Assembly (NCBI GenBank): GCA_017443585.1
Contig: JAFSYV010000115.1
Location: forward strand, 1-33,954
DNA length: 33,954 nt
Direction of reading: 5' to 3'
Source: Lentisphaeria bacterium
GTDB taxonomy: Bacteria > Verrucomicrobiota > Lentisphaeria > Victivallales > Victivallaceae
Shown: piece after piece, positions 6,406 through 31,829 of the stretch
Layout: each line of letters opens with the position of its first letter
Numbering within the stretch: the first letter of the stretch is position 1
Position numbers and translations under genes: made by a program
Notes under the pieces: generated by a model
The model's input: the letters and a program-made list of their open reading frames with translations, nothing else
Told to the model about the DNA's origin: nothing
Database searches by the model: none

Positions 6406-6425
6406 TTGATATACCTTGATATACA
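6406..6425 (+). promoter_or_regulatory. Tandem 10-base repeat, candidate operator
   Basis: TTGATATACC (6406-6415) is followed directly by TTGATATACA (6416-6425), two near-identical units one helical turn apart. They lie 8 bases upstream of the -35 box of the pseudopilin promoter, in the region shared with the divergent AraC-family gene. A direct repeat there is a plausible site for that regulator. AraC sites are often longer and about 21 bases apart, so this is only a candidate. Confidence 0.4.
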
Positions 6426-6433
6426 AAATAACC

Positions 6434-6461
6434 TTGCCTTGGAGCTTTGCGGTGCTATATT
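6434..6461 (+). promoter_or_regulatory. Predicted promoter of the first pseudopilin unit
   Basis: TTGCCT (6434-6439), a 16-base spacer ending GCGGTGC, then TATATT (6456-6461). The TG one base ahead of the -10 box makes it an extended -10 promoter. Fifteen bases here (GCGGTGCTATATTAT) recur exactly in the minus-strand promoter at 31830-31857. Confidence 0.6.
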
Positions 6462-6493
6462 ATAAGGCATATCGTCAAAAAAAGGGAATGAGA

Positions 6494-7285
6494 ATGAAAA
6501 AACAAACCAAAGACTCCGTTTTCACGCTGATCGAACTTCTGGTGGTCATCGCCATCCTCGCCATCCTCGCCTCCATGCTGCTGCCCGCGTTGCAGCAGGC
6601 CCGGGACCGGGCCGCCGCCGTCAGTTGTCAGAACAATTTCAAGACGCTGGGCAACGCCCTGGCCCTCTACCTTCAGGACAACAGCGACTTCTGGCCGGGC
6701 TACTGGAACGGCGGCAGTCCCAACCAGACCTTCCGCTCGTGTTTCTTTTACTGCAAGAAGCGTCCTGCGAACAACGCCGGAGACTTCGGGCTTCTGTGCG
6801 ACTATCTGGGGTTCGACTCGAACGCCTCTCTTTTCGGCGTCCGCCGCGTGAACAACGAGATGGTCGTCTGCAAATTCGCCTGTCCGAAACTGCCCCGCGA
6901 GGTCGCTCCCGGAAAAGAGTACCGGAGCGGTCTCGCCATGACCAAGAACGGGTCGAAATCCTCCCTGACCAACCGTGAAGTGAAGAGCACCCGGCTCCGC
7001 CGTCCCGCGGCCTGGTGTCCTTTCGGCGAAGTGGAGCAGGGCGATCTTTCCGCGTGTCTTGCGTGGAACTACGAGGCCGTTCCGGGCGAGGTGAAGACCA
7101 ACGCCTTCGCCTACCGCCACGGCTCGGGCAGCGGCGCGGGCGCGGTGCTCATTTACGGCGACTTCCATGTGGCCCTGCTGAATAAGTATCAGATCCCCGC
7201 CAACTGGTCCGTGGGCAGCCCCGCCTACTACGGCTGCTTCTGGAATCCCTGGCCGCAGGCGGGCTACGAAGACCGGTGGAAATAA
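6494..7285 (+). CDS. Type II secretion/type IV pilin-like pseudopilin
   Basis: This 263-residue protein starts with a short basic leader (MKKQTKDSV) followed by the class III signal [16 protein letters not shown], the hydrophobic N-terminal helix of pilins and pseudopilins with Glu at +5 for assembly and N-methylation. The residue before the cut site is Val rather than the usual Gly. Then comes [13 protein letters not shown], typical of the large pseudopilin families of Lentisphaerota and Planctomycetota. The C-terminal part has AYRHG followed by [10 protein letters not shown], a version of the H-X9-DG type ending. ATG 6494 is chosen because AGGGA (6483-6487) is ideally spaced; ATG 6488 is also possible. 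Its ligand is unknown. It heads a unit with a secreted protein and a glycoside hydrolase, so a role in binding or handling a glycan at the surface is plausible. Confidence 0.85.
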
Positions 7286-9734: not shown

Positions 9735-9763
9735 TTGAAAAAACAGGGGTTCGGGTGTATCTT
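9735..9763 (+). promoter_or_regulatory. Predicted promoter of the riboswitch-controlled B12 unit
   Basis: TTGAAA (9735-9740), a 17-base spacer ending CGGGTG, then TATCTT (9758-9763). The transcription start would fall around 9770, just ahead of the first riboswitch stem, which fits well. Confidence 0.6.
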
Positions 9764-9775
9764 ATATACAGAGCA

Positions 9776-9874
9776 TTTCGAAGTACACGCCCGGTGAACT
9801 CCCGTGAAAATCGGGGACTGTCCCGCAACTGTGAGAACGCGTCCGCGTTCGAGTCAGATCCCGGAACTTCGAAA
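9776..9874 (+). promoter_or_regulatory. Cobalamin riboswitch
   Basis: The stretch has the conserved core of cobalamin aptamers: CCGGTGAACTCCCGTGAAAA, CGGGGACTGTCCCGC, CAACTGTGA, and a B12-box-like GAGTCAGATCCCGG near the 3' side. It is closed by a perfect 9-base stem, TTTCGAAGT (9776-9784) with ACTTCGAAA (9866-9874). GAACGC (9835-9840) pairs with GCGTTC (9845-9850). A further small hairpin can form at about 9883-9897, just before the ribosome site (9907-9912), and may be the regulatory element. No T-run follows, so control is probably at translation start, turning the downstream genes down when B12 is plentiful. The first controlled gene is a pseudopilin. Confidence 0.88.
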
Positions 9875-9920
9875 ATCAACAACACGCTTCATGTGCGAGA
9901 GACACAGAAAGGCAAAAAAA

Positions 9921-10778
9921 ATGCAAGCGAAGTTTTTGTCCGCGGGGAGAGTTCCTTCCCGGACCGCCCTCAACTCCTTCACCCTCATCGAGCTCCTGGT
10001 GGTCATCGCCATCATCGCCATCCTGGCCGGAATGCTCCTGCCCGCGCTGCAGCAGGCCCGCGAAAGAGCCAAGAGCTCTTCGTGCACGTCGAACTTGAAA
10101 CAGCTCGGTCTGGCCAACAATGCCTACGCCGAAGATAACAGCGACTGGTTCTGCCGCTACGTGAATCCCGATCCCGGCGCCAGCGGCAAGAGCCTGCCCG
10201 GAAATTACTGGTTCGGACGCTCCGCCGACGGCAAGGTGTTCGACATGACCACCAGCCCCATTCTCGGCAGTTATTACGGCAACGTGCCGAAGGTCCTGAT
10301 CTGCCCTTCGGAACGGCTGGTCAAAGCGTACAACAACGGCGGTCATACCTACACGGGCGACGTCACTCAGGTCGCCAGCGGGGCGGGCGGATACGGCTAC
10401 ATGGGGCAGTGGTTCGGTGATTATGACCGGGAGGGCAAATCCATCAAACGGGGTATGACGGCCAACACTTCGCGCACGGTCCTGTTTGCCGACTCCGCCC
10501 GTTCCAAAATGGGCTCCAGTCTCTACGATCCTTACCGCACGGTCGCACTTCTGTACCCCCGGACCACCCCGCGCAGCACCCGGAATGACAATGCGGGCAA
10601 GGGAACGACTCATTTCCGTCACGCCAATACGGCCAACATCACCTGGGTGGACGGTCATGTTTCCGCCGAACAACCCGGCGAACTTTGTGACGATTCAGTC
10701 GCCCGGCTGGCCAAGATCGGATTTGCCGGGTCTCCGGAAAACGATCCCTATCTTCCGAGCGACAGATACATTCAATAA
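9921..10778 (+). CDS. Pseudopilin at the head of the B12 operon
   Basis: A 285-residue pseudopilin: a 19-residue leader ([11 protein letters not shown]...NS), then [16 protein letters not shown] and [14 protein letters not shown]. Conserved features follow in the usual order: the Cys pair region ([15 protein letters not shown]), [16 protein letters not shown], and the ending [16 protein letters not shown], the H-X9-DG form. ATG 9921 is used because GAAAGG (9907-9912) is well placed; an upstream in-frame GTG (9804) lies inside the riboswitch and is rejected. It is the first gene behind the cobalamin riboswitch, 21 bases before the radical SAM gene. Its product would be made when B12 is scarce. 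A surface role in corrinoid capture is my inference; no such function is established for pseudopilins. Confidence 0.88.
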
Positions 10779-10799: not shown

Positions 10800-12086
10800 A
10801 TGAGGGGTACCAGACACGGCGGAGTGCGCAGTTTGATGGGTTATCCTGCCGCGGAGGAACCGGAACCCTTCGCGGCCTGGGACCGGGCGGTTTCCCGGCC
10901 GCCCCGGGAGGCGATTCTCTACATCCACATCCCCTACTGCCGTTCCCGCTGTTCCTTCTGCCCCTTCTACCGGGGGAGCGCGGATGAGCGGGAATGGCGG
11001 GAGTATGCGGCGCTGCTCGAAAAAGAGCTTCGGCAGACGGCCTCTCTTTTCGCCGGAACGGTCATCAGCACCGTCTATTTCGGCGGCGGCACGCCGAGCG
11101 ATCTGCCGCCCGGGGCCATAAGGCGGCTTCTGCGCACGCTGAAAAGTTGTTACCGCCTCGCCAACGACTGCGAGATCACCCTCGAATCCCGCATCGACGG
11201 CTTCGATGAGGAGCGGATCGCAGCGGCGCTCGAAAACGGCGTCAACCGCTTTTCTCTGGGCGTGCAGACCTTCGATACGGACTTGCGGCGGGCTCTTGGG
11301 CGAACGTCCGACCGGGAAACCGTGCTGAAACTCATCGAACTGCTGACCGGGGCCGGGCAGGCCTCCGTGGCGGCAGATATCCTTTACGGTTTGCCGGGAC
11401 AGACGCCGAAAATGCTGCTGAACGACCTCGACACGGCGGTGAAGGGGACCGCCCTTTCGGGCATCTCCTTCTACCGTCTCCATCTTCACGAAAAACTGCC
11501 CCTTGCCGGAAAGATCCGGCAGGGCCTCATGCCGGCTCTTCCCGGCGAGGAAGAGTGCTTCGAACTCTTCTCTCTCGCCGAGGACCGCCTGGAGGAGGCG
11601 GGAGCGAAGCGCATTTCCTTCAAGCACTTTTCCCTGCATCCGCGGGAAAGGGATCTCCACAACGAACTTTCCGCGTGGAAATCCCCCTGCATCCCCTTCG
11701 GCATCGGTGCGGGAGGACGGATCGGAGTCTGGCGGTTCGGTCAGGCCGGGGAGTTCGACCTTTATCGCCGCCTGACGGAAGAGGGGCGCAAGCCCCTGGC
11801 TTCGGCGGGAAGATTTCCCGCCGATCATGCCGCAGGCGCCCGAATCGCGGGCCAGCTCAACTGCCGGATGAACTGCGACCCCGAATACACCGCTTCCGCC
11901 GCGCCGGAAGAGTTGCGGGAAAAGGTCCGGAAAAATCTCGAAACCGCCCTCTCCGGACTGGCGGCGAAGGGATTTTTTCATCCGCCCCGGTTCGGTGCGT
12001 ACCGGCTGACCCGGCGGGGCCGGTTCCAATGCGGAGCCGTTGCAAGTGAACTTATGGAATGCGCCGCCCGCGCATGGGAACAATAA
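10800..12086 (+). CDS. Radical SAM enzyme, HutW/ChuW (HemN-like) type
   Basis: A 428-residue radical SAM protein of the HemN/HemW superfamily. The cluster motif is CX3CX2C: Cys47, Cys51 and Cys54 in YCRSRCSFC, followed by FYFGGGTP-like glycine-rich SAM contacts (YFGGGTPSDLPP) and the HemN-type segments RFSLGVQTFD and ADILYGLPGQT. The C-terminal part has GIGAGGRIG followed later by GRKPLAS, which I associate with HutW/ChuW/HmuW, enzymes that open heme without oxygen, rather than with HemN or HemW. GGAGG (10791-10795) precedes ATG 10800. It sits between a B12-riboswitch pseudopilin and a tetrapyrrole-type ABC importer. Whether it acts on heme, a corrinoid or a synthesis intermediate cannot be told from sequence. 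Confidence 0.82.
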   Translation: MRGTRHGGVRSLMGYPAAEEPEPFAAWDRAVSRPPREAILYIHIPYCRSRCSFCPFYRGSADEREWREYAALLEKELRQTASLFAGTVISTVYFGGGTPSDLPPGAIRRLLRTLKSCYRLANDCEITLESRIDGFDEERIAAALENGVNRFSLGVQTFDTDLRRALGRTSDRETVLKLIELLTGAGQASVAADILYGLPGQTPKMLLNDLDTAVKGTALSGISFYRLHLHEKLPLAGKIRQGLMPALPGEEECFELFSLAEDRLEEAGAKRISFKHFSLHPRERDLHNELSAWKSPCIPFGIGAGGRIGVWRFGQAGEFDLYRRLTEEGRKPLASAGRFPADHAAGARIAGQLNCRMNCDPEYTASAAPEELREKVRKNLETALSGLAAKGFFHPPRFGAYRLTRRGRFQCGAVASELMECAARAWEQ

Positions 12087-12104
12087 AAGAAAACGGAGTG
12101 TGCC

Positions 12105-13049
12105 ATGTACGAAAAAATCATCCCGGCGGTCCTCCTGATCGCCGCCGCCTTTTCTTCTCTCCCCGGAGCTGATCCCGCCGGAAATAAGCCGGCGCCTCGG
12201 ACGATCCCCTACCGGCAGCTCGACGGCAATACGGTCGCCGTCAAGGTCAACCCTCAGCGGGTGGTCATCGGCTACGGGTCCCTGGCCAAGGTGTGGGATC
12301 TGGCCGGGGGCCGCGCCATCGCCGTGCCCGGACTGCTTTCCAAGGACGCGCTTCCGGAAAGCATGAGAAATTTGCCCTCTTCGGGGTCGCCGCAAGTTCC
12401 CAACGTGGAGGCCGTCGCGGCCATGAAGCCCGATCTGGTGCTGCTGATGGGCCACCTGCCCCGGCACCGGGACTGCGCGGCGCTGTTCCAAAGCATGGGC
12501 ATCGACACCGTCTGCGTCACCTACAACACCTACAGGGACTTTCTCGAACTGCTCAAGTTTTTCTGCCGGCTCAACGGCCGGGAACTGAAGGATGTGCCCC
12601 GGGCGAAAAAGATCATCGCCGACGTCCAGTCCGTCTGCGCCGGGGTGAAGGGCCGTCCCGCGCCCCGCTGTGCGGTCTTGTTCGCCTCGGCCGCCGGATT
12701 TTCTCTCGAAGCGGGGGGGACCAACAACGGCATCATGCTGGAAATGCTGGGCGGGGAAAATATCCTCAAGGAGAAGGTCAGCCGCCGCGTCAAGTTCAGC
12801 TACGAAAAACTGCTGATGGAAAATCCGGACGTGATCTTCGTCGTGACCATGGGCAGAGCCCCGGCGCTGAAGAAGAAGTTCGAAAAGGAATTTTCTTCGC
12901 AGCCCGCGTGGCAGTCCATGAAGGCGGTGAAAAACAGCCGGGTCCACTTTCTGCCCTCCCGGCTCTTCCTGTACATGGCCGGCCCGGATTATCCCGAGGC
13001 GTTTCGGTACATGGCGAAACTGCTCTACCCCGACATGGAGCGGAAATGA
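12105..13049 (+). CDS. ABC transporter substrate-binding protein (BtuF/FecB type)
   Basis: A 314-residue periplasmic binding protein of the iron-siderophore/heme/B12 class. It begins with a signal peptide (MYEKIIPAVLLIAAAFSSLPGA) without a lipobox Cys, so it is predicted to be soluble in the periplasm. Family features are the segment RVVIGYGS, the motif PNVEAVAAMKPDLVLL that forms the first lobe edge, a long linking helix, and the C-terminal PDVIFVV and LPSRLFLYMAGP. The next gene starts inside its stop codon. Class alone does not separate B12, heme and siderophore binders; the riboswitch upstream and the cob genes downstream favour a corrinoid. Confidence 0.85.
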   Translation: MYEKIIPAVLLIAAAFSSLPGADPAGNKPAPRTIPYRQLDGNTVAVKVNPQRVVIGYGSLAKVWDLAGGRAIAVPGLLSKDALPESMRNLPSSGSPQVPNVEAVAAMKPDLVLLMGHLPRHRDCAALFQSMGIDTVCVTYNTYRDFLELLKFFCRLNGRELKDVPRAKKIIADVQSVCAGVKGRPAPRCAVLFASAAGFSLEAGGTNNGIMLEMLGGENILKEKVSRRVKFSYEKLLMENPDVIFVVTMGRAPALKKKFEKEFSSQPAWQSMKAVKNSRVHFLPSRLFLYMAGPDYPEAFRYMAKLLYPDMERK

Positions 13050-14056
13050 ACGGATTTTCGAGATTCCTCCACAGCGCCGCCGGGAGAACGTGCTTCTGTA
13101 TCGTCACCGCCATACTGCTGGCGGCGGCCATGGTGCTGAGTCTGCGCTTCGGGGCGCTGAAACTCACCACCTCGGAGATCCTGCGTCTTTTGTGGGAACG
13201 GCCTGAAGGGATCGAGAGCCAGATCATCATCAACATCCGTCTGCCCCGGATATTGCTGGGAGCCCTCACGGGGGCCTGTCTCGCCGCGGCGGGGACGATC
13301 CTGCAGAGCATCATGCGCAACCCGCTGGCCTCTCCGGGGATCATCGGCGTTTCCGCCGGGGCGGGACTTGCGGGGATACTGGTCATGCTGGCCGTCCCCC
13401 AGTTCAGCGTCCTGCTGGTCCCGGCGGCCTTCTGCGGAGCCTTGCTGACGGCGGTGCTGGTCTATCTGCTCGCGTGGAAACGGGGCGCTTCCCCCGTCCG
13501 GCTGATCCTGGCCGGGGTGGCGGTCTCGGCCATGCTGAGCGCTTTCAGCAGCACGATCCTGCTTTTCAACGCGGAAAAGGCCGGCGGGATCCTCGACTTT
13601 TCCATCGGCTCCCTTTCCGCCCGCTCCTGGCTTCAGATCGAACAGGCCGGGATCTACATGGGGCTCGGACTTCTCGGAGCCGTCGCGCTGGGTGCCAAAC
13701 TCAACATCCTCGCCCTGGGCGATGAGGTGGCCGCCGGGCTGGGCATGAACGTGGAAAGGGTGCGGTTTCTGGCCATCGCCGCGGCGGCGCTGCTGGCGGC
13801 TTCGGCGGTGAGCGTGGCGGGACTGCTCGGCTTCGTGGGGCTGATCGCGCCGCATATCGTCCGGCTCGTCATCGGGGGAGACAACCGTTTTCTCGTCCCC
13901 GGCTCCGCCCTTTTCGGCGGGCTCATGGTGGTTGCCTGCGACGCCGCGGGCCGCATGGTCATCGAGCCTTCCGAACTGCCGGTGGGGATCATCATGGCCC
14001 TCCTGGGGCCTCCCTTCTTTCTCTGGCTTTTGAGGAGACAGCGCTATGGAGCTTGA
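13046..14056 (+). CDS. ABC transporter permease (BtuC/FecCD type)
   Basis: A 336-residue inner-membrane permease of the FecCD family with about ten hydrophobic segments. Typical motifs are RLPRILLGALTGACLAAAG followed by QSIMRNPLASPGIIGVSAGAG in the first third, and GLLGFVGLIAPHIVRLVIG, the cytoplasmic coupling region that meets the ATPase, near the C-terminus. It starts with ATG 13046 overlapping the TGA of the binding-protein gene, and its end overlaps the ATPase gene by 11 bases. With its neighbours it forms a complete importer for a B12- or heme-like ligand. Confidence 0.92.
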   Translation: MNGFSRFLHSAAGRTCFCIVTAILLAAAMVLSLRFGALKLTTSEILRLLWERPEGIESQIIINIRLPRILLGALTGACLAAAGTILQSIMRNPLASPGIIGVSAGAGLAGILVMLAVPQFSVLLVPAAFCGALLTAVLVYLLAWKRGASPVRLILAGVAVSAMLSAFSSTILLFNAEKAGGILDFSIGSLSARSWLQIEQAGIYMGLGLLGAVALGAKLNILALGDEVAAGLGMNVERVRFLAIAAAALLAASAVSVAGLLGFVGLIAPHIVRLVIGGDNRFLVPGSALFGGLMVVACDAAGRMVIEPSELPVGIIMALLGPPFFLWLLRRQRYGA

Positions 14057-14834
14057 GGTCCGCGAAATCAAGGGCGGCTACGGCGCCGATCTGGTCATCG
14101 ACGGCGTGAGCTTCACCGTGCGGTCGGGCTCGGTGGTGACTTTGCTGGGGCCCAACGGCTCCGGCAAGTCCACGTTGCTGAAAATGCTGGGGCGGATCCT
14201 GAAGCCCCGCAGCGGAAGCGTGCTGCTGGACGGCAAAGAGCTCTCTTCCCTCGATTCCGCCGCACTGGCCCGGAAGATGGCCGTGCTGCCCCAGCTGCAT
14301 CAGGCTCCCGGCGAGATCACCGTGGAGGAACTGGTCACTTTGGGACGCTATCCCCACCGGGGATGGAACTTCGTCATGTCTTCCACTGACCGGGAGGCGG
14401 TGGAGCGCTCCCTTGCCATGACGCGGATGACGCAGTTCCGCGACCGGCCCATGAACTCCCTTTCCGGCGGCGAACGCCAGCGGGCGTGGATCGCCATGAC
14501 TCTCGCTCAGGAACCGGAACTGCTGCTCCTGGATGAACCCACCACCTTTCTCGACATCAGCTGTCAGTTCGAGATCGTCGAGATCATCCGGAAACTGAAC
14601 CGGGGATCCGGGCTCACGGTCGTCATGGTCCTCCACGACCTGAATCTGGCGGCCGCCTGCTCGGACCCGCTTATCATGCTCAAGGACCGCAAGATCCGCT
14701 GTACCGGCACTCCCGCCGAGGTCCTGACCCCGGAAATTTTGCGGGAGGTCTTCCAGATCGAAGCCCGGATCGTGATGCTCGAAGAGGGCTACCCCTGCTG
14801 CATCACCACCGGATCGGCAAGAGGTGAAAAATGA
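14046..14834 (+). CDS. ABC transporter ATP-binding protein (BtuD/FecE type)
   Basis: A 262-residue ATPase that powers the importer. All nucleotide-binding motifs are present: Walker A GPNGSGKST (about 36-44), Q-loop in AVLPQ, signature LSGGERQR, Walker B LLLLDEPTTFLD, and the switch His in VLHDLN. The pattern GEITVEELVTLGRYPH is typical of the FecE/BtuD branch. It overlaps both neighbours (permease end, chelatase start by ATGA), which supports one tightly coupled translation unit. Confidence 0.93.
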   Translation: MELEVREIKGGYGADLVIDGVSFTVRSGSVVTLLGPNGSGKSTLLKMLGRILKPRSGSVLLDGKELSSLDSAALARKMAVLPQLHQAPGEITVEELVTLGRYPHRGWNFVMSSTDREAVERSLAMTRMTQFRDRPMNSLSGGERQRAWIAMTLAQEPELLLLDEPTTFLDISCQFEIVEIIRKLNRGSGLTVVMVLHDLNLAAACSDPLIMLKDRKIRCTGTPAEVLTPEILREVFQIEARIVMLEEGYPCCITTGSARGEK

Positions 14835-16123
14835 AGATCCTGATCGTCTATGCCAGCCGGGAAACCGGCAACTCGGCCCGTGTGGCGCAGGCCATCGCCG
14901 ACCGGCTGGGGCCGGAGTGTTCCCTGTTCTCCGTTTCCCAAGCCCCCGATCCCGGCGGATTCGATTTCGTTGCGCTGGGCTTCGGCATCTACCGGGGCTG
15001 GCCCGACGGCGACATGATCGCCTATATGAAGCGCTGCCGGAAAAAGAAGGTCGGGCTTTTCATGACGCTGGGGGCGTGGCCGGACTCCGCGCCCGCCGCC
15101 AACTGTCTGGGCCGGGCCGAGGGGCTGCTTGCCGACTGCACGGTCTGCGTGAAATTCGCCTGCCAGGGAGCCTACGCGCCCGAGTTTCTCGCCAGACTCC
15201 AGAGCTTGCCCCCGACCTCCAGCCACGGGTGGACCCCGGAGCGGGCCCGGCGGATCACCGAGGCCATGAAGCACCCCGATGCGGAGGATCTGACCCGTGC
15301 CGGGGAGATGTTTTCTGCCGCAATCGAACACCTCCGCACTCAACCTTCCGTAACTTCCTCACCGATACAAAAAAAAGCGGTGGCGGCGGTCTTTTTCGGC
15401 AGTACGGTGCCGCGGGCGCGGGAAGCCTACCGGAAGATCACGGAGGAGACGGAAAAACGTTTCCCCGGCGTCCCGGTGTTTCAAGCCTACACTTCCGAGA
15501 TCGTGCGGAAGCGGACCGGGTACACGGTGCCCTCCCTGCCCGAGCTGCTCAAGAAACTTCAGCTCGAGGGGTACACGGGCGTGGACGTCCTTGCCGGTCT
15601 CCTGTCGCCGGGGGAGGAGTACCACCGCCTGCTCCGGGATGTCTCCGGTTTTTCGCGGAGCCTGCCCTGCCGCGTCACGCAGGTCCCCTTTTCCTCCCTC
15701 GGGCGGATGCGGGAATTTCTGAACCGGACCGCAGCCTCGCTGCCCCCCGAAAGGAAGCCCGATGAGGATGTGCTCTTCATGGGCCACGGCAATCCCGACG
15801 GCCGGGCCGACTTCATCTATATGACGGCGGCCCAGGAGCTGGCGAAGATCGATCCCCGGTTCCATCTGGCCTGCGTGGAGGGGGCTCCCGGTCTGGACGA
15901 GGTGATGCCGAAGCTGAATGCGAAGAAGGTGTACCTGGTCCCCTTCATGCTGGTGGCGGGAGATCACGCCCTCAATGATATGGCGGGGGAGGAAGAGGAG
16001 TCCTGGCGTTCCCGCCTCGAAGCGAAGGGCTTCCGGTGCGAATGCGTGCTCCGGGGGCTGGGCGAGGCGGAAGGTGTGGCCGCCTTGTTCCCCGACTATC
16101 TGAAGGCGCTGGATGAACCGTGA
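14831..16123 (+). CDS. cbiK: Flavodoxin-CbiK fusion (cobalt chelatase)
   Basis: A 430-residue two-domain protein. Residues 1 to about 172 form a flavodoxin-like domain: MKILIVYASRETGNSARVAQ with a phosphate-binding loop for FMN, FVALGFGIYRGWPDG, and LFMTLGAWPDS. From about residue 181 comes CbiK, the anaerobic sirohydrochlorin cobaltochelatase: VFFGSTVPRAREAY, the tetrapyrrole/metal His in FMGHGNPDGRADF, and FMLVAGDHALNDMAGEEEESW, a family signature. CbiK proteins are normally about 260 residues without a flavodoxin. The linker is encoded over a run of eight A bases (15368-15375 region), unusual in this GC-rich DNA. The flavodoxin could supply electrons to the radical SAM enzyme four genes upstream, as separate flavodoxins do in anaerobic heme-degradation loci; that is inference. 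Confidence 0.85.
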   Translation: MKILIVYASRETGNSARVAQAIADRLGPECSLFSVSQAPDPGGFDFVALGFGIYRGWPDGDMIAYMKRCRKKKVGLFMTLGAWPDSAPAANCLGRAEGLLADCTVCVKFACQGAYAPEFLARLQSLPPTSSHGWTPERARRITEAMKHPDAEDLTRAGEMFSAAIEHLRTQPSVTSSPIQKKAVAAVFFGSTVPRAREAYRKITEETEKRFPGVPVFQAYTSEIVRKRTGYTVPSLPELLKKLQLEGYTGVDVLAGLLSPGEEYHRLLRDVSGFSRSLPCRVTQVPFSSLGRMREFLNRTAASLPPERKPDEDVLFMGHGNPDGRADFIYMTAAQELAKIDPRFHLACVEGAPGLDEVMPKLNAKKVYLVPFMLVAGDHALNDMAGEEEESWRSRLEAKGFRCECVLRGLGEAEGVAALFPDYLKALDEP

Positions 16124-16163
16124 GAAAACTCCGGCAAAGTCATGCCGCTTTCGCACGGCGCAT

Positions 16164-16192
16164 TTGCAATTCGCGGCGTTCCGGTGTATGTT
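16164..16192 (+). promoter_or_regulatory. Internal promoter ahead of the B12 biosynthetic block
   Basis: TTGCAA (16164-16169), 17 bases ending CCGGTG, then TATGTT (16187-16192). It lies in the only gap of notable size (105 bases) of the B12 locus, about 37 bases ahead of the cobD-cbiP start. No aptamer fits between it and the gene, so transcripts from here would escape the riboswitch at 9776-9874. Confidence 0.6.
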
Positions 16193-16228
16193 GAGTAACG
16201 GTCAAGGAAAAATGGGAGAATTCGGACG

Positions 16229-18727
16229 ATGATCCGGCACGGAGGCGATCGGGCTTTTCTGGCGCAGCTTGCGCATTGCGATCCGGGAGAGATCCTGGAT
16301 TTCAGCGTGAATCTGCACCCCTCGGGGATGCCCGACGGGCTTCCCGCGGTCCTGCTGCGCGCCCTGAACAAGGTGGGCCCCTACCCGGAGCCTCACGCCG
16401 AGAGCCTTTCCCGTCTGGCGGGGGCCAAATGGAACCGGCCCGCGGGAGAATTCCTCTTCGGCAACGGCTCCAGCGAACTGCTGGAGCTCCTGCCCCGTGT
16501 TCTTCCCTGCCGGGAGGCCCTGATCGTCACGCCGGGCTATCTCGAGTACGCCCGGAGCTGCGAAAAGGCCGGGCTGACGGTCCGGGAGTTCCCCCTGCGC
16601 GAGGAGCGGGATTTCGTGCCGGACCTGACCGAACTGGTCCGGGCCGCTTCCCCCGGCGGACTGGTCATCATGGGCAATCCCGACAACCCCACGGGGGCGA
16701 CGGCGCCCGCGTCTTCCCTTTGGGAAACGGTGAAGGCGAACGAAGGACTCTTCTTCCTCATCGACGAAGCTTTCGCCGAGTTTTCCGGGGAGACATTGCT
16801 GGAACTGCCCCCTCTGCCCAATCTTTTCGTTCTGCACTCCCTGACCAAGTTCTACGCCATGGCGGGGGTGCGGGCGGGCTTCATCCGCGGCCCGGAACAG
16901 TGGATCGCCGCCATGCGGGAACTGCAGACCACCTGGAGCGTGGGGACCGTGGCGGCGGAGGCGGCGGCCTTTCTGCTGAGTTCCGACGTGCAGGACCGGG
17001 CCGTGGTGGACGAATTGCGGGAGGAGCTTGCTTCCGGGCTCCGGGCCGCCGGATTGAAGGTCTATCCCTCCCATGCCAATTATCTGCTCTGCCGCTCGGA
17101 GCGTCCCCTCTTCGAAGCTTTGCTCGAAAAGCGCATCGCCGTCCGGGACTGTTCCAACTATCCGGGGCTGGACGGGCACTATTTCCGGGTGGCGGTCCGC
17201 AGTCGCGGGGACAACGAAAAACTTCTGCAGGCCATCGCGCCTTCGCAGGCTCCGTATATCGCCTGCAAGCGCCCGAAACCCGCCGTCATGCTGCAGGGGA
17301 CCTGTTCCAACGCGGGCAAGAGCGTCCTCGCCGCCGCCTTCTGCCGCATCCTCCTTCAGGACGGCTTTTCCGTGGCGCCCTTCAAGGCCCAGAACATGGC
17401 GCTGAACTCCTTCGTCACCCCCGACGGCGGAGAGATCGGCCGGGCGCAGGCGGTGCAGGCCGAAGCCTGCCGTCTGGACCCCGACGTGCGCATGAACCCC
17501 ATCCTCCTGAAGCCGGACAGCGATCTGGGCAGTCAGGTGGTGGTGATGGGCCACCCCATCGGCAACTTCAAAGTCCGGGATTACTTCCGCAAGAAAAAGG
17601 AGCTGTGGCGCCAAGTCACGGCGGCCTACGATTCCCTCGCTTCCGAACACGACTGCGTGGTGCTGGAGGGGGCGGGCAGTCCGGGAGAGGTCAATCTGAA
17701 ATCCTCGGATATCGTCAACATGAACATGGCGAAGTACGCCTGCGCCCCCGTGATCCTGACCGGCGACATCGACCGGGGGGGCGTCTACGCCTCCTTCATC
17801 GGCACCTGGATGACCCTCGAGCCGGGGGAACGGGAACTGCTTTACGGCTTCCTCGTCAACAAATTCCGGGGGGACCCCTCCCTGCTCCGGGACGCCCACA
17901 CCTACGTGGAAAAGATGACGGGGAAGCCCGTCCTGGGCGTCATCGACTTTCAGCACAAGCTGGGATTGCCGGAAGAGGACTCCGTCGGATTCTCATTCGC
18001 CGCTCAGACGGCGAAGGATGCCCTCTGTCTCGACGCGGCGGTGATCCATCCGGGGCACATTTCCAACTTCACCGACTTCGCTCCTCTGGAGCAGGAACCC
18101 GACGTGCGGCTCCGGATCGTGGAAGAGGGGGACGATCTGGGGGATCCCGATCTGATCCTGCTCCCCGGAAGCAAATCCGTCGCGGGCGATATGGAAAGAC
18201 TTCGCCTTTCGGGGCTCTGGGAGAAATTGAAGCGGAGTTCCGCCTATCTCTGCGGCATCTGCGGCGGACTGCAGATGCTGGGCGAAAGGATCTGCGACCC
18301 GGAACACGTGGAGTCCGCGGGCGTCTGCGCGGAAGGGTTGGGTCTTTTACCCCTCGAAACCGTCATGGCCCCGGAAAAGACGCTCCTCCGGACCCGGAGT
18401 CTCTGCGGGGATCTCGGGGAAACCTCCGGCTACGAGATCCACCACGGCCGGACCCGTGCGCTGGCGGAGACGGTGACGGTCCACCGCACCCCTGACGGGC
18501 GGGAAACGGGCTTCGAAAAGGGGAACTGCTTCGGGACCTACCTGCACGGCATCTTCGACGACGACCGTTTCCGCCGGGCCTTCCTGAACCGCCTGCGGAA
18601 GAGGAAGAACTGGCCGGAAACCCCCGAGCGGACGCACTACGGGATCGAGGAGGCCTTGAACAAACTCGCCGACCACGTCCGCTCCCGGGTGGATCTGAAA
18701 AAACTGTACAGGAGAATGGGATTATGA
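16229..18727 (+). CDS. CobD-CbiP fusion: threonine-phosphate decarboxylase and cobyric acid synthase
   Basis: An 832-residue fusion. Residues 1 to about 340 are a PLP enzyme like CobD, which makes (R)-1-amino-2-propanol phosphate from threonine phosphate: LDFSVNLHPSG, MGNPDNPTG and the PLP Lys207 in HSLTKFYAMAGVRAGF. From about residue 352 it is CbiP/CobQ, which amidates adenosylcobyrinate diamide to cobyric acid: MLQGTCSNAGKSV (P-loop), PFKAQNMALNS, LTGDIDRGGVYAS, and the glutaminase nucleophile Cys678 in LCGICGGLQMLG. The two steps meet at CbiB, so joining them makes metabolic sense. GGGAG (16214-16218) serves ATG 16229. A seven-codon frame (16212-16232, MGEFGR) ends on its start codon. Confidence 0.92.
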   Translation: MIRHGGDRAFLAQLAHCDPGEILDFSVNLHPSGMPDGLPAVLLRALNKVGPYPEPHAESLSRLAGAKWNRPAGEFLFGNGSSELLELLPRVLPCREALIVTPGYLEYARSCEKAGLTVREFPLREERDFVPDLTELVRAASPGGLVIMGNPDNPTGATAPASSLWETVKANEGLFFLIDEAFAEFSGETLLELPPLPNLFVLHSLTKFYAMAGVRAGFIRGPEQWIAAMRELQTTWSVGTVAAEAAAFLLSSDVQDRAVVDELREELASGLRAAGLKVYPSHANYLLCRSERPLFEALLEKRIAVRDCSNYPGLDGHYFRVAVRSRGDNEKLLQAIAPSQAPYIACKRPKPAVMLQGTCSNAGKSVLAAAFCRILLQDGFSVAPFKAQNMALNSFVTPDGGEIGRAQAVQAEACRLDPDVRMNPILLKPDSDLGSQVVVMGHPIGNFKVRDYFRKKKELWRQVTAAYDSLASEHDCVVLEGAGSPGEVNLKSSDIVNMNMAKYACAPVILTGDIDRGGVYASFIGTWMTLEPGERELLYGFLVNKFRGDPSLLRDAHTYVEKMTGKPVLGVIDFQHKLGLPEEDSVGFSFAAQTAKDALCLDAAVIHPGHISNFTDFAPLEQEPDVRLRIVEEGDDLGDPDLILLPGSKSVAGDMERLRLSGLWEKLKRSSAYLCGICGGLQMLGERICDPEHVESAGVCAEGLGLLPLETVMAPEKTLLRTRSLCGDLGETSGYEIHHGRTRALAETVTVHRTPDGRETGFEKGNCFGTYLHGIFDDDRFRRAFLNRLRKRKNWPETPERTHYGIEEALNKLADHVRSRVDLKKLYRRMGL

Positions 18728-19242
18728 CACCGCCCGAAAGTTTCATCTATGTCTTCACCGGCAACGGCAAGGGCAAGACCTCGGCGGCGCTGGGCGCCGT
18801 CGTGCGGGCGCTGGGGTGGGACTGGCGCGTGGCGGTCCTGCAGTTCATGAAAAGCGACCGGGACACGGGGGAGCGGCTCTTTTTCAAGCGGTTTTTCCCG
18901 CAGGTCCTCTTCGAAGATCTGGGGCTGGGCCGCAGCTGCAAGCCCGGCGAACACAAGGCCGCCGCCCAGGCGGGCTGGCTCCGGGCGGCGGAACTGCTGC
19001 AGAAGTTCGACGGGGAACTGCTCGTGCTGGACGAACTCAACGTGACGCTGGGCAAGGGTTATCTGGAACTCCCCGCCGTGCTTCAGGCCCTGCGGGAGCG
19101 CCGGGCGGGGCTGAACGTGGTCGTCACCGGGCGCTATGCCCCGCCGGAAATTCTGGAACTGGCCGATCTGGTTTCGTCGATCGAAGAGGTGAAACACCCC
19201 TTCCAGTCGGGGATCCCGGCGCAGAAAGGGCTGGATTGGTGA
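18724..19242 (+). CDS. cobA: Cob(I)yrinic acid a,c-diamide adenosyltransferase (CobA/CobO/BtuR type)
   Basis: A 172-residue corrinoid adenosyltransferase that attaches the 5'-deoxyadenosyl group to Co(I) corrinoids. It has the P-loop GNGKGKTS (13-20) of the CobA/BtuR fold, VAVLQFMKSDRDTGE, and the Walker B-like LLVLDELNVTLGKGYL. Length is normal. ATG 18724 overlaps the TGA of the cobD-cbiP fusion and its own TGA overlaps the cbiC start, so it is embedded in a translationally coupled chain. Confidence 0.93.
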   Translation: MTPPESFIYVFTGNGKGKTSAALGAVVRALGWDWRVAVLQFMKSDRDTGERLFFKRFFPQVLFEDLGLGRSCKPGEHKAAAQAGWLRAAELLQKFDGELLVLDELNVTLGKGYLELPAVLQALRERRAGLNVVVTGRYAPPEILELADLVSSIEEVKHPFQSGIPAQKGLDW

Positions 19243-19904
19243 TGGACTTTTCGAACATACTCTGGAATCTGGACGGCAGCGGCATCGAGCAGGAAAGTTT
19301 CCGCCGCATCGACGCCGAAACGCCGCCCGAAAAGAGGGCGAAATTTTCCGAAAAGGAGTGGCATGTGGCCCGGAGACTGGTCCACACGGGGGCCGATTTT
19401 TCGCTCCTCGACGTACTGGAATTTTCCCCCGGCGCGGTGGAGTCGGGGCTCGCGGCGCTCCACCGGGGGTGCCCGATCTACAGCGACTCCAACATGATCC
19501 GCTCCGGGTTGTCCGTGCCGAAACTGCAGAAGTTCCACGCCTCCTACACCCGCGACTCCATCCTCTGCCCCATCGCCGACGAAGAGGTGGTCCGGTACGC
19601 ACGGGAACAGGGCGTCACCCGTGCGCTGGCGGCTGTGGAGATCCACCGGGAGTACTTCGACGACGCCATCTTCCTCTGCGGCAACTCGCCCCTCGCCCTG
19701 GCCTGGGTGGTCCGGCTCATCGCCTAAAGGAACATCCGGCCCGCCCTCATCATCGGCATGCCCGTGGGCTTCGTCAACGTGGTGGAGTCCAAGAAACTGC
19801 TGGACCATGCGGATGTTCCGTGGATCCGTCTCAACGGCCGCCGGGGCGGCAGTCCCTTCGCCGTGGCCGCGCTCCACGGGATCATGGAGAACGAACTTTC
19901 ATGA
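19242..19904 (+). pseudogene. cbiC: Cobalt-precorrin-8 methylmutase interrupted by an in-frame TAA
   Basis: CbiC moves a methyl group from C11 to C12 to give cobyrinic acid. From ATG 19242 the first 161 codons read as normal CbiC: SFRRIDAET, AQRLVH-type VARRLVHTGADF with the catalytic His, PIYSDSNMIRSGL, and GNSPLALAWVVRLIA. Codon 162 is TAA (19725-19727). The same frame then continues without other damage through RPALIIGMPVGFVNVVESK and RRGGSPFAVAALHGI to TGA 19902-19904, which overlaps the cbiD start exactly as at the other junctions. The family usually has a charged residue (Glu/Lys/Gly) at the stop position, so one base change explains it. It may be a fresh nonsense mutation, a sequencing error, or readthrough/suppression. 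TAA ends other genes here (carB, cobU, cobT), so general stop reassignment is excluded. Confidence 0.85.
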
Positions 19905-20959
19905 AAGTTGAACCGGGCAAAGAACTTCGCAACGGTTTCACCACGGGCAGCGCCGTGGCCGCCGCCGCCGTGGCCGCTTTCCGGAACTCGGCGGATCAGG
20001 TGGAGCTTCTTCTCCCCTCGGGGGAAACGCTCCTCATCCCCGTGCTCCATGCGGAGCCGGGGCGGGCTTCGGTGGTCAAGGACGGCGGGGACGATCCCGA
20101 CGTGACGAGCGGCATGACCCTCACCGTGACCCTCGCCCCCTGCGACGCCCCCGCGGACCCCAGGGACCACGAGGAGTCGGCGGACGGTCTGACGCTGGTG
20201 ATCCGGGGGCTTTCCGGGGTGGGCACGGTCACCCGGCCCGGTCTGGCCGTGCCCGTGGGCAAATACGCCGTCAATCCGGGGCCTCGGAAAATGCTCCTCG
20301 CCAATCTGCTCCGCGCCGGGGTCCGGGGGCGCTGGCTCGTCGGCATCGAAGCCGCCGACGGCGAGACCGTCGCGGCAGAGACGTTGAACCCCACCCTCGG
20401 CATCGTGGGCGGGATATCCATTTTGGGGAACTCCGGGATCGTCCGGCCCTACTCCAACGCGGCCTACGCCGCCGCGATCCGCCTGCAGATAAGGAGTTTC
20501 GCCGCTTCGGGCGGGCGGAAGGCGGCGCTGGTGACGGGGAACCGCACCGCCGAGGCCGTGGCCAGGGATTTTCCCGAGATCCCGCCCGAAGGGGTGGTCC
20601 GCATGGGGGATTTCGTCTACATCGCGCTCCGGGCGGCGGCGGAAAGTGCGCTCCCCGCCGTCGTGGTGGGCTGCATGCCGGGCAAACTCTTCAAATACGC
20701 CTGCGAAGAGAAGAACACCCACGCCCACAAGAGCAAACTCGACCTGACCCGTCTGCGCTCCTTCGGCGTCGATCTGCCGAACGTTCCCCTCGAAAGCATG
20801 GACTCCATGGGGGAACTTTCGCACCATCTCGCCCCCGAAGCGTGGCGCGAAGTCCTGCGCAAGGTCCATTCACGGGCCCTCGCGGTCCTGCAGAGCTGGG
20901 CCGGATCGACCCGGGTCGAAGCGGTCCTCTACAACGAAAAAGGAGAAAAAGTGTCATGA
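19901..20959 (+). CDS. cbiD: Cobalt-precorrin-5B C1-methyltransferase
   Basis: A 352-residue CbiD, the C1 methylase of the anaerobic pathway. Recognisable segments are LRNGFTTGSAVAAAA at the start, VKDGGDDPDVTSGM, GVGTVTRPGLAVPVGKYAVNPGPRKM, and GISILGNSGIVRPYSNAAY, all typical of the family. CbiD marks the early-cobalt route, in keeping with CbiK and CbiG. ATG 19901 overlaps the cbiC stop; GGAGAA at 19885-19890 gives it its own ribosome site, so it can still be translated if ribosomes stop at the cbiC TAA. Its end overlaps the cbiET start. Confidence 0.96.
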   Translation: MKVEPGKELRNGFTTGSAVAAAAVAAFRNSADQVELLLPSGETLLIPVLHAEPGRASVVKDGGDDPDVTSGMTLTVTLAPCDAPADPRDHEESADGLTLVIRGLSGVGTVTRPGLAVPVGKYAVNPGPRKMLLANLLRAGVRGRWLVGIEAADGETVAAETLNPTLGIVGGISILGNSGIVRPYSNAAYAAAIRLQIRSFAASGGRKAALVTGNRTAEAVARDFPEIPPEGVVRMGDFVYIALRAAAESALPAVVVGCMPGKLFKYACEEKNTHAHKSKLDLTRLRSFGVDLPNVPLESMDSMGELSHHLAPEAWREVLRKVHSRALAVLQSWAGSTRVEAVLYNEKGEKVS

Positions 20960-22161
20960 AGATCATCTGCGCGGGCTGCTGCGGCGATCTCCTTTCGCAG
21001 ACGGCCCTGAAAGCGGCGGAAAAGGCCGACATCGTCGCCGCCCCCCGGCGGCTCCTGGAGTCCGTCTCTTTGCCGGAGAACGCGGCGAAATGCGTCCTCG
21101 ACGCGAAATTCATCGCCGATTTGCCCCGGTTTTTCCGGGAAAACGATTCGAAAACGATCCTTTTTCTCGCCTCCGGGGATCCCCTCTATCACGGCATCGG
21201 CGGGACGCTCCGCCGTCTGCTGCCCGGCGAAAAGATCCTTTTTTACCCGGCGCCCACGGCCTTCCAGCAGTTTTTCGCCGCCATCGGGCAGCCGTGGGAA
21301 GGGGCGGAGCTCTTTTCGCTCCACGCAAAAGAGGAGGAACTGCCCTTCCGGCGGATTTTGCGCTCCCGGCTCTGCGCCGTCTACGGCGATGCGGCCCGCC
21401 CCGCCAAGGTCATCGCCCAGCAGCTGATCGCCCTCTGGCCCCCCTGCGCGAACCGGGCTGCCGCCGCCGGGTGCGACTTGGGAACTCCGGGGGAGTTCGT
21501 CATGCAGGGACGTCTGGAAGAGATCGCCGGCTGTGAAAAAGCGGCCGCCTCCCTCTCGGTGCTGGCGCTCCTCCCCGGCGGACCGGGCGAAGTCCCGCAA
21601 TTCCCGTTGGGGCTGCCCGACGACTCCTACACCCACTTCAAGAACATGATCACCCACCCGGAGATCCGGGCCGTGGTGCTGTCGAAACTGCGCCTCGGCC
21701 CCGGCGTTATGTGGGATCTGGGCGCGGGCAGCGGCTCCGTGGGGCTGGAGGCGGCGCTTCTCTGCCCCGGCCTCACCGTCTGCGCCGTGGAGAAAAACGA
21801 GGAGCGCTTCGCCCAGCTGCGGGAGAATCTCCGCCGGGAAGGCGTCGGCAATGTCAAGGCCTTTTTCGGGGAGGGGGAAACGCTGCTCGACACGCTCCCC
21901 GCTCCCGACCGGGTCTTCATCGGCGGCGGGGGGAGCGCGCTCCTCGAAGCGAGTTTCGCCCGCCTGAAACCGGGCGGACTTCTGGTCATGACGGGGGTCA
22001 TGCTCGACACATTGGCCCTCATGGAGTCCTTCCTCCCGGAATGTAGAAGCGAGTTCCTGCAGATCGGCATCAGCCGTTCGCGGGAGATCTCGCCGGGAAA
22101 ACTCATGCTGGCGGCGGAAAATCCCGTGGCCGTGGCCGTCTGGCGGAAAGGCGAGGCGTGA
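20956..22161 (+). CDS. cbiET: CbiE-CbiT fusion: cobalt-precorrin-6B C5/C15-methyltransferase
   Basis: A 401-residue bifunctional enzyme like CobL. The N-terminal ~200 residues are the tetrapyrrole-methylase CbiE (C5 methylation) with LFLASGDPLYHGIGGTL. From about residue 215 it is CbiT (C15 methylation and decarboxylation), a Rossmann methyltransferase with HFKNMITHPEIRAVVL and the SAM loop MWDLGAGSGSVGLE. The very N-terminus (MKIICAGCCGDLLS) departs from the usual GxGPG start of the family. ATG 20956 overlaps the cbiD TGA. Longer frame starts lie inside cbiD and are rejected. Confidence 0.94.
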   Translation: MKIICAGCCGDLLSQTALKAAEKADIVAAPRRLLESVSLPENAAKCVLDAKFIADLPRFFRENDSKTILFLASGDPLYHGIGGTLRRLLPGEKILFYPAPTAFQQFFAAIGQPWEGAELFSLHAKEEELPFRRILRSRLCAVYGDAARPAKVIAQQLIALWPPCANRAAAAGCDLGTPGEFVMQGRLEEIAGCEKAAASLSVLALLPGGPGEVPQFPLGLPDDSYTHFKNMITHPEIRAVVLSKLRLGPGVMWDLGAGSGSVGLEAALLCPGLTVCAVEKNEERFAQLRENLRREGVGNVKAFFGEGETLLDTLPAPDRVFIGGGGSALLEASFARLKPGGLLVMTGVMLDTLALMESFLPECRSEFLQIGISRSREISPGKLMLAAENPVAVAVWRKGEA

Positions 22162-23957
22162 AAGTGGACAACATCGGAAAAATCACCTTCGTGGGGGCCG
22201 GACCCGGCGCTCCGGACCTGATCACGGTCCGCGGACTGGCCTGCCTCAAGGAGGCCGACGTCATCATTTACGCAGGCTCCCTTGTGGATGAAAGACTCCT
22301 CGCCAACGCCCCCGGCGCGGTCCTGCACAACAGCGCGAAAATGGCGTTGGAAGAGGTCATGGAGATCATGCTCCGGGAGTTCCGCGCGGGGAAGAAGGTG
22401 GTCCGGCTCCACACCGGGGACCCGGCCGTCTACGGGGCCGTTTCCGAGCAGTACCGGGAGCTGGACAAGGCGGGCGTTCCCTACGAGGTGGTCCCCGGCG
22501 TCAGCAGCGTCTTCGCCGCCGCCGCCGCCCTCAAGGTGGAGCTGACCATGCCGGAGCTTTCCCAGAGCGTCATCATGACCCGCGCGCCGGGGCGCACCCC
22601 CGTGCCGCCCGGAGAGGCCCTTGAAGAGCTGGCGAAGCACGGGAGCACCCTCTGCATCTTCCTGAGCGTGGGCGATATGGATTCTCTTTGCGCCAAACTC
22701 GTCAAGGCGGGGCGTTCCCCCGAAACTCCGGCGGCGGCGGTCTATCGGGCCAGCTGGGAAAATCAGCGGATCGTCCGGGGAACCCTCGCCGACATCGCCG
22801 CCAAGGTGGCCGATGCGGGCATCAAGCGGCAGGCCATGATCGTGGTGGGCGAAGTGCTCACCCGCAGCGGGGAACTTTCGAAACTTTACGACCGCCATTT
22901 CACCACCGGGTTCCGCCATCACAAGTTTTCGGGAAAGGTCGCCGTTTTCGCCCTGACCCGTCAGGCGGTGCTCAAGGCTTCCGAGATCGCTTCGGGCCTC
23001 GCCGACGCCCGGCTTTTCGTGCCGGAAAAATTCGCCGGGAGCGCTCCGGAACTCCGCCGGTCCTGTTTCCCCGAAGGGGGCTTCGGCCGCTGTTTCGCGG
23101 AAAACTGGCCGCGGTTCGACGCTTTCGTCATGGTCATGGCCGCGGGGATCGTGGTCCGTCACCTCTCCGGCCTCTGCTCGGACAAGAAAAAGGACCCCGC
23201 CGTGGTGGTCTGCGACGAGCAGGGGAATTACGCCGTAAGTCTCCTTTCCGGCCACGTCGGGGGCGGCAACGACCTCGCCCGCGACGTATCTGCCGTCACG
23301 GGGGGCCGGGCCGTCATCACCACGGCGAGCGATGTGGAACAAATGCCCGCATTCGACGAGTTCGCCCGGCGTCACCGGGCGGAGATCCGCAACCCGGAAG
23401 CGCTGACCGCCGTCGCTTCCGACGTGGTCAACCGCGAGAAGATCGGCCTCGAAATGCCCCGAAGGCTCTTCGACGCATGTTTCGCCGGGAGGGAGCAGTT
23501 CACTCTGCTCCGGGAGCGGACCGACGGGCGTATGCTGGTCCACGCCCCCCGCGCCACACTGGAGCTGGCTCTGCCCTTCATCGTTCTCGGCATCGGCTGC
23601 CGGAAGAATGTGAGCTCCTCCCGGATCGCCGCCGTGGTCCGGCGCGTACTGGAGGAACTGCAGCTGGATATGGCCGATGTTTCCCTCATCGCCTCGGCCT
23701 CGGTCAAGCAGAATGAGCCGGGACTCCTCGATTTCGCCCGTGAGAACGGCTTGGAGTGCCGTTTCTTTTCCGCGGAACAACTCAACGCCGTTCCCGTGCC
23801 CAACCCCTCGGCGGCGGCCATGCGGGAGTTGGGCATCAACTCCGTTTCCGAGGCCTCGGCCCTGCTGGGCGCGGGGGAAGAAGCCGTGCTGATCAGAACG
23901 AAGCTGGCCGATACCGACGTCACCGTCGCCGCGGCCGAAAGGAGAAGCGTCGAATGA
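22158..23957 (+). CDS. CbiF-CbiG fusion: C11-methyltransferase and cobalt-precorrin-5A hydrolase
   Basis: A 599-residue fusion. Residues 1 to about 255 are CbiF, the cobalt-precorrin-4 C11-methyltransferase: FVGAGPGAPDLITVRG, VIIYAGSLVDERLL, RLHTGDPAVYGA, VVPGVSSVFAAAA. From about residue 260 it is CbiG, which opens the ring lactone and releases acetaldehyde: VMVMAAGIVVRHLSGL, SLLSGHVGGGNDLAR and VLGIGCRKNVSS. These enzymes act one after the other (CbiF then CbiG), so the fusion is of consecutive steps. The start is GTG 22158, overlapping the cbiET TGA; GTG 22164 is a less likely alternative. Confidence 0.94.
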   Translation: MKVDNIGKITFVGAGPGAPDLITVRGLACLKEADVIIYAGSLVDERLLANAPGAVLHNSAKMALEEVMEIMLREFRAGKKVVRLHTGDPAVYGAVSEQYRELDKAGVPYEVVPGVSSVFAAAAALKVELTMPELSQSVIMTRAPGRTPVPPGEALEELAKHGSTLCIFLSVGDMDSLCAKLVKAGRSPETPAAAVYRASWENQRIVRGTLADIAAKVADAGIKRQAMIVVGEVLTRSGELSKLYDRHFTTGFRHHKFSGKVAVFALTRQAVLKASEIASGLADARLFVPEKFAGSAPELRRSCFPEGGFGRCFAENWPRFDAFVMVMAAGIVVRHLSGLCSDKKKDPAVVVCDEQGNYAVSLLSGHVGGGNDLARDVSAVTGGRAVITTASDVEQMPAFDEFARRHRAEIRNPEALTAVASDVVNREKIGLEMPRRLFDACFAGREQFTLLRERTDGRMLVHAPRATLELALPFIVLGIGCRKNVSSSRIAAVVRRVLEELQLDMADVSLIASASVKQNEPGLLDFARENGLECRFFSAEQLNAVPVPNPSAAAMRELGINSVSEASALLGAGEEAVLIRTKLADTDVTVAAAERRSVE

Positions 23958-31642: not shown

Positions 31643-31818
31643 TGCGTCTTCCTTTCGACTAAAGACGCACCAAGAGGCGAGTGACGGCAAAAGCCGCCCG
31701 GATAATTTTTTTGATCTTTCGATCCGCATCCGCCAACGGCACCCCTGTGCCGCCGGCGATTCACCGTGGGTATCCGACCTCGGTTGACAGGCGCCGAACT
31801 CGACGCCACTCCTGATGC
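31643..31818 (-). promoter_or_regulatory. Structured 5' leader of the unknown basic protein gene
   Basis: No gene is seen here. The predicted transcript leader (minus strand) has three hairpins: CGGCAC/GTGCCG at 31737-31752 with a 4-base loop; CGGC/GCCG around TTTT at 31685-31696; and an 8-base stem TGCGTCTT/AAGACGCA at 31643-31669, whose loop and 3' arm contain the ribosome site AAAGGAAG just before the ATG. The last hairpin could switch translation on and off. It fits no riboswitch class I know. Confidence 0.45.
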
Positions 31819-31829
31819 ACTTTGCCGAT

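Follow-up and report, generated by a model that had tools for sequence, protein, structure and literature searches.

The window analysed here is a stretch of 33,954 nucleotides, contig C360 of a metagenome-assembled genome (G000; 4.13 Mb, 92% complete, 7.45% contamination) of a Lentisphaeria bacterium, and the genes of concern lie at positions 10800–16123 of its forward strand, the strand of all module and operon features below. An earlier note on this DNA had described them as a heme-salvage-like module under B12 control, and all the parts that it named are present, namely a radical S-adenosylmethionine (SAM) protein, a substrate-binding protein (SBP), a FecCD permease, an ATPase, and a Flavodoxin_3 domain joined to CbiK in one open reading frame. 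However, the module is not the free-standing unit that this description implied; instead, it forms the first quarter of an anaerobic B12 (cobalamin) operon of approximately 20 kb, the cbi and cob genes of which continue contiguously to position 29837.

An adenosylcobalamin (AdoCbl) riboswitch at 9762–9918, outside the module proper, matches the full model of Rfam RF01482 over its full length (E 3e-6) with 49.1 bits, marginally below the gathering score of 50, and its 3′ end reaches 3 bases upstream of the ATG of the first operon gene. The assignment is supported by cobalamin-clan riboswitches directly upstream of the orthologous operon, in front of its pilin gene, at 10 other loci—7 above the gathering score (genomes G036, G134, G022, G126, G025, G132, and G063) and 3 below it with E ≤ 7.2e-5 (G020, G037, and G057)—which supports the B12 control proposed earlier. 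A scan of the G059 region gave no cobalamin riboswitch at the gathering score. The first gene (9921–10778), located between the riboswitch and the radical SAM gene and overlooked in the earlier note, encodes a DUF1559-type pseudopilin (PF07596, PF07963). It is conserved as gene 1 of riboswitch-controlled B12 operons in the order Victivallales (loci L027, L029, L031, L033, L034, L036, L153, L156–L159, L178, and L188), and these pilins are orthologous to one another, with 33–58% identity over approximately 240–310 aa, whereas other pilins score at most 83 bits against the operon pilin, mostly over the N-terminal 50–75 residues. The protein possibly functions in surface capture or uptake. A second pseudopilin, upstream in the window (6416–7285), resembles the operon pilin in its N-terminal region only.

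The radical SAM protein (10800–12086) matches ChuW/HutW (TIGR04107) with 324 bits (E 1e-96), below the cut-off of 400 bits for that model yet the best score of all families and twice that of HemW (155 bits; HemN, 120 bits), and its predicted fold is HemN-like. In a tree of 59 proteins made by a quick IQ-TREE search, with 48 HutW-type proteins included and the HemW of the same genome as the outgroup, the ten B12-linked radical SAM proteins form one clade (SH-aLRT 100) that has a long stem and is nested among the HutW-type proteins, many of which have neighborhoods combining ABC genes with a flavodoxin. Scores and tree together rule out HemW or HemN identity and place the protein in a divergent clade of the HutW/ChuW/HmuW (anaerobilin synthase) family, in agreement with the ring-opening type of enzyme that had been proposed. 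The CxxxCxxC motif (C47, C51, C54), D123, D193, H276, and R282–R284 are kept, as are the DCEIT and RER motifs. Two further positions, given in the numbering of the window protein, are altered: the position of W277 is tryptophan in 46 of the 48 HutW-type proteins and Phe or Tyr in all ten B12-linked ones, and that of Y287 is tyrosine in all 48 and His, Phe, or Asn in nine of the ten, being kept in one. Both may be pocket residues, with Y287 in a loop of low certainty in the predicted model (residues 286–290). G000, G036, and G037 fall in the subclade with the most altered residues.

The importer comprises a periplasmic SBP of the IsdE/HupD lineage (12105–13049), a FecCD/BtuC-type permease (13046–14056; PF01032, 308 bits), and an ABC transporter ATPase of the FecE/HmuV/BtuD type (14046–14834; profile match). 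The closest matches of the SBP are heme SBPs (Lmo2184, E 1e-21; IsdE, E 1e-18; BtuF follows at 4e-6) and not siderophore ones, in support of the earlier note. The axial heme ligands of IsdE, which we take to be Met78 and His229, correspond, both at an offset of 29, to Gln and Met in the window SBP, and across 15 aligned SBPs the Met78 position is Q, T, S, N, G, or F and the His229 position is Met in 14. Because both ligand positions are replaced, heme binding of the IsdE kind by this SBP is unlikely. In combination with the two changed and otherwise nearly invariant HutW positions, this replacement points to a tetrapyrrole other than heme, so that heme itself, to whose uptake loci the earlier note had likened the module, is an unlikely cargo.

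The last open reading frame of the module encodes a 430-aa fusion (14831–16123) of an FldH/HmuF-like flavodoxin domain (14831–15349, residues ~1–173; Flavodoxin_3) with a CbiK cobalt-chelatase domain (15350–16123; PF06180, 149 bits). A profile built from seven such domains hits heme-bound FldH (8g64) at full length (E 6e-13), the next match being 2e-5 over one third of the length, and FldH is also the best flavodoxin match to the predicted fold (TM 0.82 on the target, with ordinary flavodoxins at about 0.6). His132 aligns with the FldH heme ligand His134, is invariant in the seven fused domains, and has an equivalent in a stand-alone copy of G057 and in most flavodoxins of heme loci. FldH/HmuF, of which 8g64 is the structure, bind heme via His134, pass it on to HmuW, and then act as reductants of the product formed (PMC10404700). 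By profile, fold, and the kept histidine, the domain is thus of the heme-binding HmuF type, as had been claimed, although HmuF and FldH stand alone and the domain here is fused to CbiK, in 8 genomes. The CbiK domain has the GHG, VE(G), and AGDH motifs (H319, E350, H379) common to 2xvx and 1qgo, and scores 122 bits against a cut-off of 400 for the CbiK equivalog NF047852. The SLHxxxGxE histidine, which each of the three solved relatives (2xvx, 1qgo, and 9b86) has and most ring-making neighbors keep, is lost in all aligned CbiK of importer-headed operons.

Beyond the fusion, the operon continues almost without gaps, with assignments from profile matches: a fusion of CobD (threonine-phosphate decarboxylase) with CbiP (cobyric acid synthase) (16229–18727), the corrinoid adenosyltransferase CobA/BtuR (18724–19242), the precorrin-8 methylmutase CbiC (19242–19727), CbiD (19901–20959), a CbiE-CbiT fusion (20956–22161), a CbiF-CbiG fusion (22158–23957), CbiH (23954–24706), CbiA (24693–26003), CbiB (26003–26989), the alpha-ribazole phosphatase CobC (26968–27516, start approximate), CobU (27506–28039), CobT (28041–29111), and, as the final gene, CobS (29112–29837). 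The cbiC reading frame has a TAA at codon 162, after which CbiC homology runs on in the same frame to the gene end at ~19900; CbiC is uninterrupted in relatives (~215–221 aa), and the stop means that the gene is broken or that the assembly is in error here. Downstream of the operon, the minus strand carries a SAM-I/IV riboswitch (31697–31823, 48.9 bits) followed by a 148-aa open reading frame (31194–31640).

HemB (PF00490), HemC (TIGR00212), and uroporphyrinogen methyltransferase (SUMT; TIGR01469) were not found by profile in the assemblies of most genomes with the module, namely G000, G036, G037, G020, G022, G134, G126, and G057, of which G134 and G126 are 99% complete, and 23 of the 36 CbiH-bearing genomes lack both HemB and HemC. 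The genomes compared are mostly metagenome bins, so that absence from one bin is weak evidence and a pattern over many is stronger; genome counts and Fisher tests ignore shared ancestry. Ring-making relatives, by comparison, give a clean HemB match and have HemC-SUMT-HemD as a single frame of ~700–800 aa (L149, L163, L165, L166, and L042), which in several of them lies close to HemB, CbiL, and CbiK. Without HemB, HemC, and SUMT, the ring would have to come from outside the cell, and an importer beside the operon is found in 18 of 20 genomes lacking HemB and HemC versus 2 of 9 that have both (Fisher p 0.0007, uncorrected for relatedness). By its gene content, G000 fits the profile of a tetrapyrrole precursor salvager for cobamide synthesis, a lifestyle proven for 5-aminolevulinate (Shelton et al., PMC6461909), in that a corrin pathway, CbiL excepted, is present and precursor synthesis is absent. 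The suggestion of the earlier note that ring material is recovered when B12 is low fits best; the reason for doing so, namely the lack of the three synthesis enzymes, had been overlooked.

The pathway varies further within the order. CbiL lies between cbiK and cobD in G020, G057, and G126, and not in the corresponding gap of the window (16123–16229), while solitary CbiL genes far from cbi genes occur in G134, G131, G069, and G018. CbiJ was not found in any of the 28 B12-pathway genomes tested, ring-makers included, and another cobalt-precorrin-6A reductase may operate in the order; replacement of CbiJ by the radical SAM protein was considered, but a gap shared by carriers and non-carriers of the module alike is uninformative on this point. 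CbiK is absent in G132 and G133, and the B12 operons L156, L157, L158, and L159 have CbiL and CbiH with neither CbiK nor CbiX found in the genome, so that CbiX is not a stand-in there. The pilin- and importer-headed operons L187 (G039) and L188 (G041) lack CbiK, CbiL, and CbiH, with no CbiH in the genome, and their pathway would therefore start at a cobalt-precorrin-4-like intermediate. In G126 (L036, 15501–16487) and G134 (L029, 15970–17070) a membrane protein, which we take to resemble the predicted cobalt transporter CbtX (COG3366), lies between the cbiK/cbiL genes and cobD, and the G134 operon has two SBP genes in tandem (L029, 11204–12981).

Conservation of the operon was followed in 137 genomes of the order, where relatives with the same operon are named Victivallales or Lentisphaerae bacteria (Lentisphaerota). 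A close radical SAM protein occurs in 11 of these genomes and is tied to B12 genes by context in 10, the link being defined as the order pilin, radical SAM, SBP on the contig together with cbi genes either on that contig or elsewhere in the assembly. The module of G136 adjoins a cbi operon read in the opposite direction, and the eleventh carrier, G018, has a heme-type locus. The layout of riboswitch, pilin, radical SAM, importer, flavodoxin-CbiK, optional CbiL, and CobD/CbiP is kept in about ten Victivallales genomes. This conserved order excludes a chance association and answers the call of the earlier note for a conserved neighborhood. The radical SAM protein is present in 7 of 8 genomes with a fused and 2 of 20 with an unfused CbiK (p 0.0002, uncorrected for relatedness). 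Outside the group, the closest relatives obtained by scanning 84,980 species genomes (Cloacimonadota, Desulfobacterota, Sutterella, and others) had no cbi operon in the flanks fetched, and a search of viral contigs gave no relatives.

Overall, the parts of this module descend from heme-handling lineages and appear retuned, with changes at positions possibly turned toward the ring and with the catalytic residues kept. This combination leads us to propose, with a probability of roughly 0.45, that ring-auxotrophic Victivallales have repurposed an Hmu-type uptake and handling module so that a tetrapyrrole scavenged from outside supplies their B12 synthesis. The cargo is probably a siroheme- or sirohydrochlorin-type ring rather than heme. 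From siroheme or sirohydrochlorin, a single metal step leads to the CbiK product; heme, to our knowledge, cannot be converted to a corrin by known chemistry, and protoheme is an unlikely cargo because the acetate side chains and the ring methyls that a corrin requires are missing from it. On this proposal, low adenosylcobalamin would allow the riboswitch to permit expression of the operon, and the importer, perhaps with the pseudopilin at the cell surface, would take in a tetrapyrrole from other organisms. The FldH/HmuF-like domain would hold the metal-tetrapyrrole via His132 beside FMN, reduce it, and hand it to CbiK, which would insert cobalt into the ring, after removal of iron if the cargo is siroheme, and the product would go on to corrin synthesis. 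As the usual partner of HmuF-type flavodoxins, the radical SAM protein may remodel the cargo or dispose of unusable rings. The sequences show the operon, the riboswitch, the homologies, the conserved gene order, and the lack of HemB, HemC, and SUMT in the assemblies, whereas we infer the cargo, the direction of metal exchange, and the roles of the radical SAM protein and the pseudopilin.

Several observations weigh against this proposal. G056, G058, and G059, B12 genomes of the same order, have the importer and CbiK but lack the radical SAM protein, and the radical SAM carriers G025 and G136 possess HemB, HemC, and SUMT; accordingly, the radical SAM protein does not track ring auxotrophy, and a strict link between the two was rejected (p 0.27). 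The role of this enzyme is the weakest point: it may modify the cargo or clear unusable heme, and the clearing of competing heme that the earlier note suggested is a possible role for it. CbiL, the C20-methyltransferase, was not found in G000, G036, and G037, leaving the pathway after CbiK incomplete as assembled, and cbiC is interrupted by its in-frame stop. HemB, CbiH, and a radical SAM protein of the window type are absent from all listed genus-mates of G000, and the G000 bin is 92% complete and 7.45% contaminated, although the composition of the window fits it (r 0.88–0.98; GC 0.635 versus 0.58–0.64), which disfavors contamination as the origin of the contig without fully excluding it.

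It could be argued that the locus is a true Hmu-type system for heme uptake and degradation placed under B12 control, in which the radical SAM protein opens heme, the flavodoxin reduces the product, the cell gains iron or rids itself of toxic or competing heme, and CbiK serves ordinary B12 synthesis. The set of parts matches the Fusobacterium hmu operon (PMC10404700), and the HutW-family placement with the CxxxCxxC and family-invariant Asp residues, the kept FldH heme-ligand histidine, and the nearness of the SBP to heme SBPs all agree with it. However, all or almost all of the 15 SBPs have other residues in place of both axial ligands of IsdE, W277 and Y287 of HutW are changed in the clade, the flavodoxin is fused to CbiK, and the importer also occurs in B12 operons that have no such radical SAM protein, so that we consider this explanation credible but unlikely.

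Alternatively, the importer may be an ordinary corrinoid importer (BtuFCD): the flavodoxin would reduce corrinoid cobalt for adenosylation by CobA, and the radical SAM protein would have an unrelated or minor role. BtuC is among the FecCD permeases, and in Salmonella corrinoids are reduced for adenosylation by a flavodoxin. In Desulfovibrio, a B12 riboswitch is described upstream of cbiK-cbiL and btuCDF (PMC545781). Against this, the SBP reaches just 28.5 bits with the curated BtuF model (NF002894; cut-off 234), the flavodoxin belongs to the tetrapyrrole-binding FldH type rather than to the ordinary ones and has the first pathway enzyme, not CobA, as its fusion partner, and the missing ring synthesis is left unexplained unless whole corrinoids are imported, which would make the cbi genes needless. 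We regard this explanation as unlikely.

HutW-type enzymes attach a SAM-derived carbon to a tetrapyrrole meso carbon (PMC10035031, PMC10404700). In its most ambitious form, our proposal would have B12 made from siroheme or another finished isobacteriochlorin scavenged from neighbors by a low-B12-induced importer, a flavodoxin-chelatase fusion exchanging iron for cobalt, and a radical SAM protein with a new ring chemistry, such as meso-carbon methylation without ring opening; as a whole, this is improbable. That the radical SAM protein is a tetrapyrrole methyltransferase replacing a missing corrin methylation, for example the C20 step of CbiL, fits this chemistry and the lack of CbiL in the most altered subclade (G000, G036, and G037), but is highly improbable and disfavored, as CbiL and the radical SAM protein coexist in seven genomes (G020, G022, G025, G057, G126, G134, and G136) and CbiL is also missing in B12 genomes without it (for example, G067, G121, G122, and G129).

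If the proposal of a repurposed module holds, it would provide a gene-level handle on a thinly sketched stage of the B12 economy, in which cells keep the corrin pathway but acquire the ring, and would suggest that not only 5-aminolevulinate but also tetrapyrroles are shared as public goods. It would also add a new use for a family of heme-degradation enzymes and a new chelatase fusion, and the old puzzle of Porphyromonas, which has B12 genes without precursor synthesis, would become testable in another phylum.

Finally, the module can be compared with known systems. As the earlier note had surmised, open-licence literature on HutW with cobalamin, on siroheme salvage, and on FetB with CbiK gave no description of a system with this combination. 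The Fusobacterium hmu operon (HmuTUV, HmuW, HmuF/FldH; PMC10404700) shares the FecCD-type importer, the HutW-family radical SAM protein, and the FldH-type flavodoxin with its heme-ligand histidine; unlike it, the window module is under a B12 riboswitch and joined to a full cbi/cob operon, its flavodoxin is fused to CbiK, its SBP is without the IsdE heme ligands, and its radical SAM protein belongs to a clade of its own with two altered family positions. The Desulfovibrio cbiK-cbiL and btuCDF locus is similar in having a B12 riboswitch over a FecCD-type importer, CbiK, and CbiL, whereas the passages of that source considered here take the importer as BtuCDF and mention neither a HutW-type radical SAM protein nor a flavodoxin fusion (PMC545781). 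The CbiK chelatases and the CbiK-like heme-binding FetB (2xvx, 1qgo, and 9b86) share the fold and the active-site motifs, but the window CbiK is fused to an FldH-type flavodoxin and has lost the SLHxxxGxE histidine. The precursor salvagers, and Porphyromonas gingivalis, which is cited as lacking the steps to precorrin-2 (PMC6461909), resemble the window genome in having a corrin pathway without synthesis of the ring precursor; unlike the salvagers of 5-aminolevulinate, the window genome is without HemB, HemC, and SUMT, and its B12 operon is headed by a dedicated importer and a tetrapyrrole-handling module.

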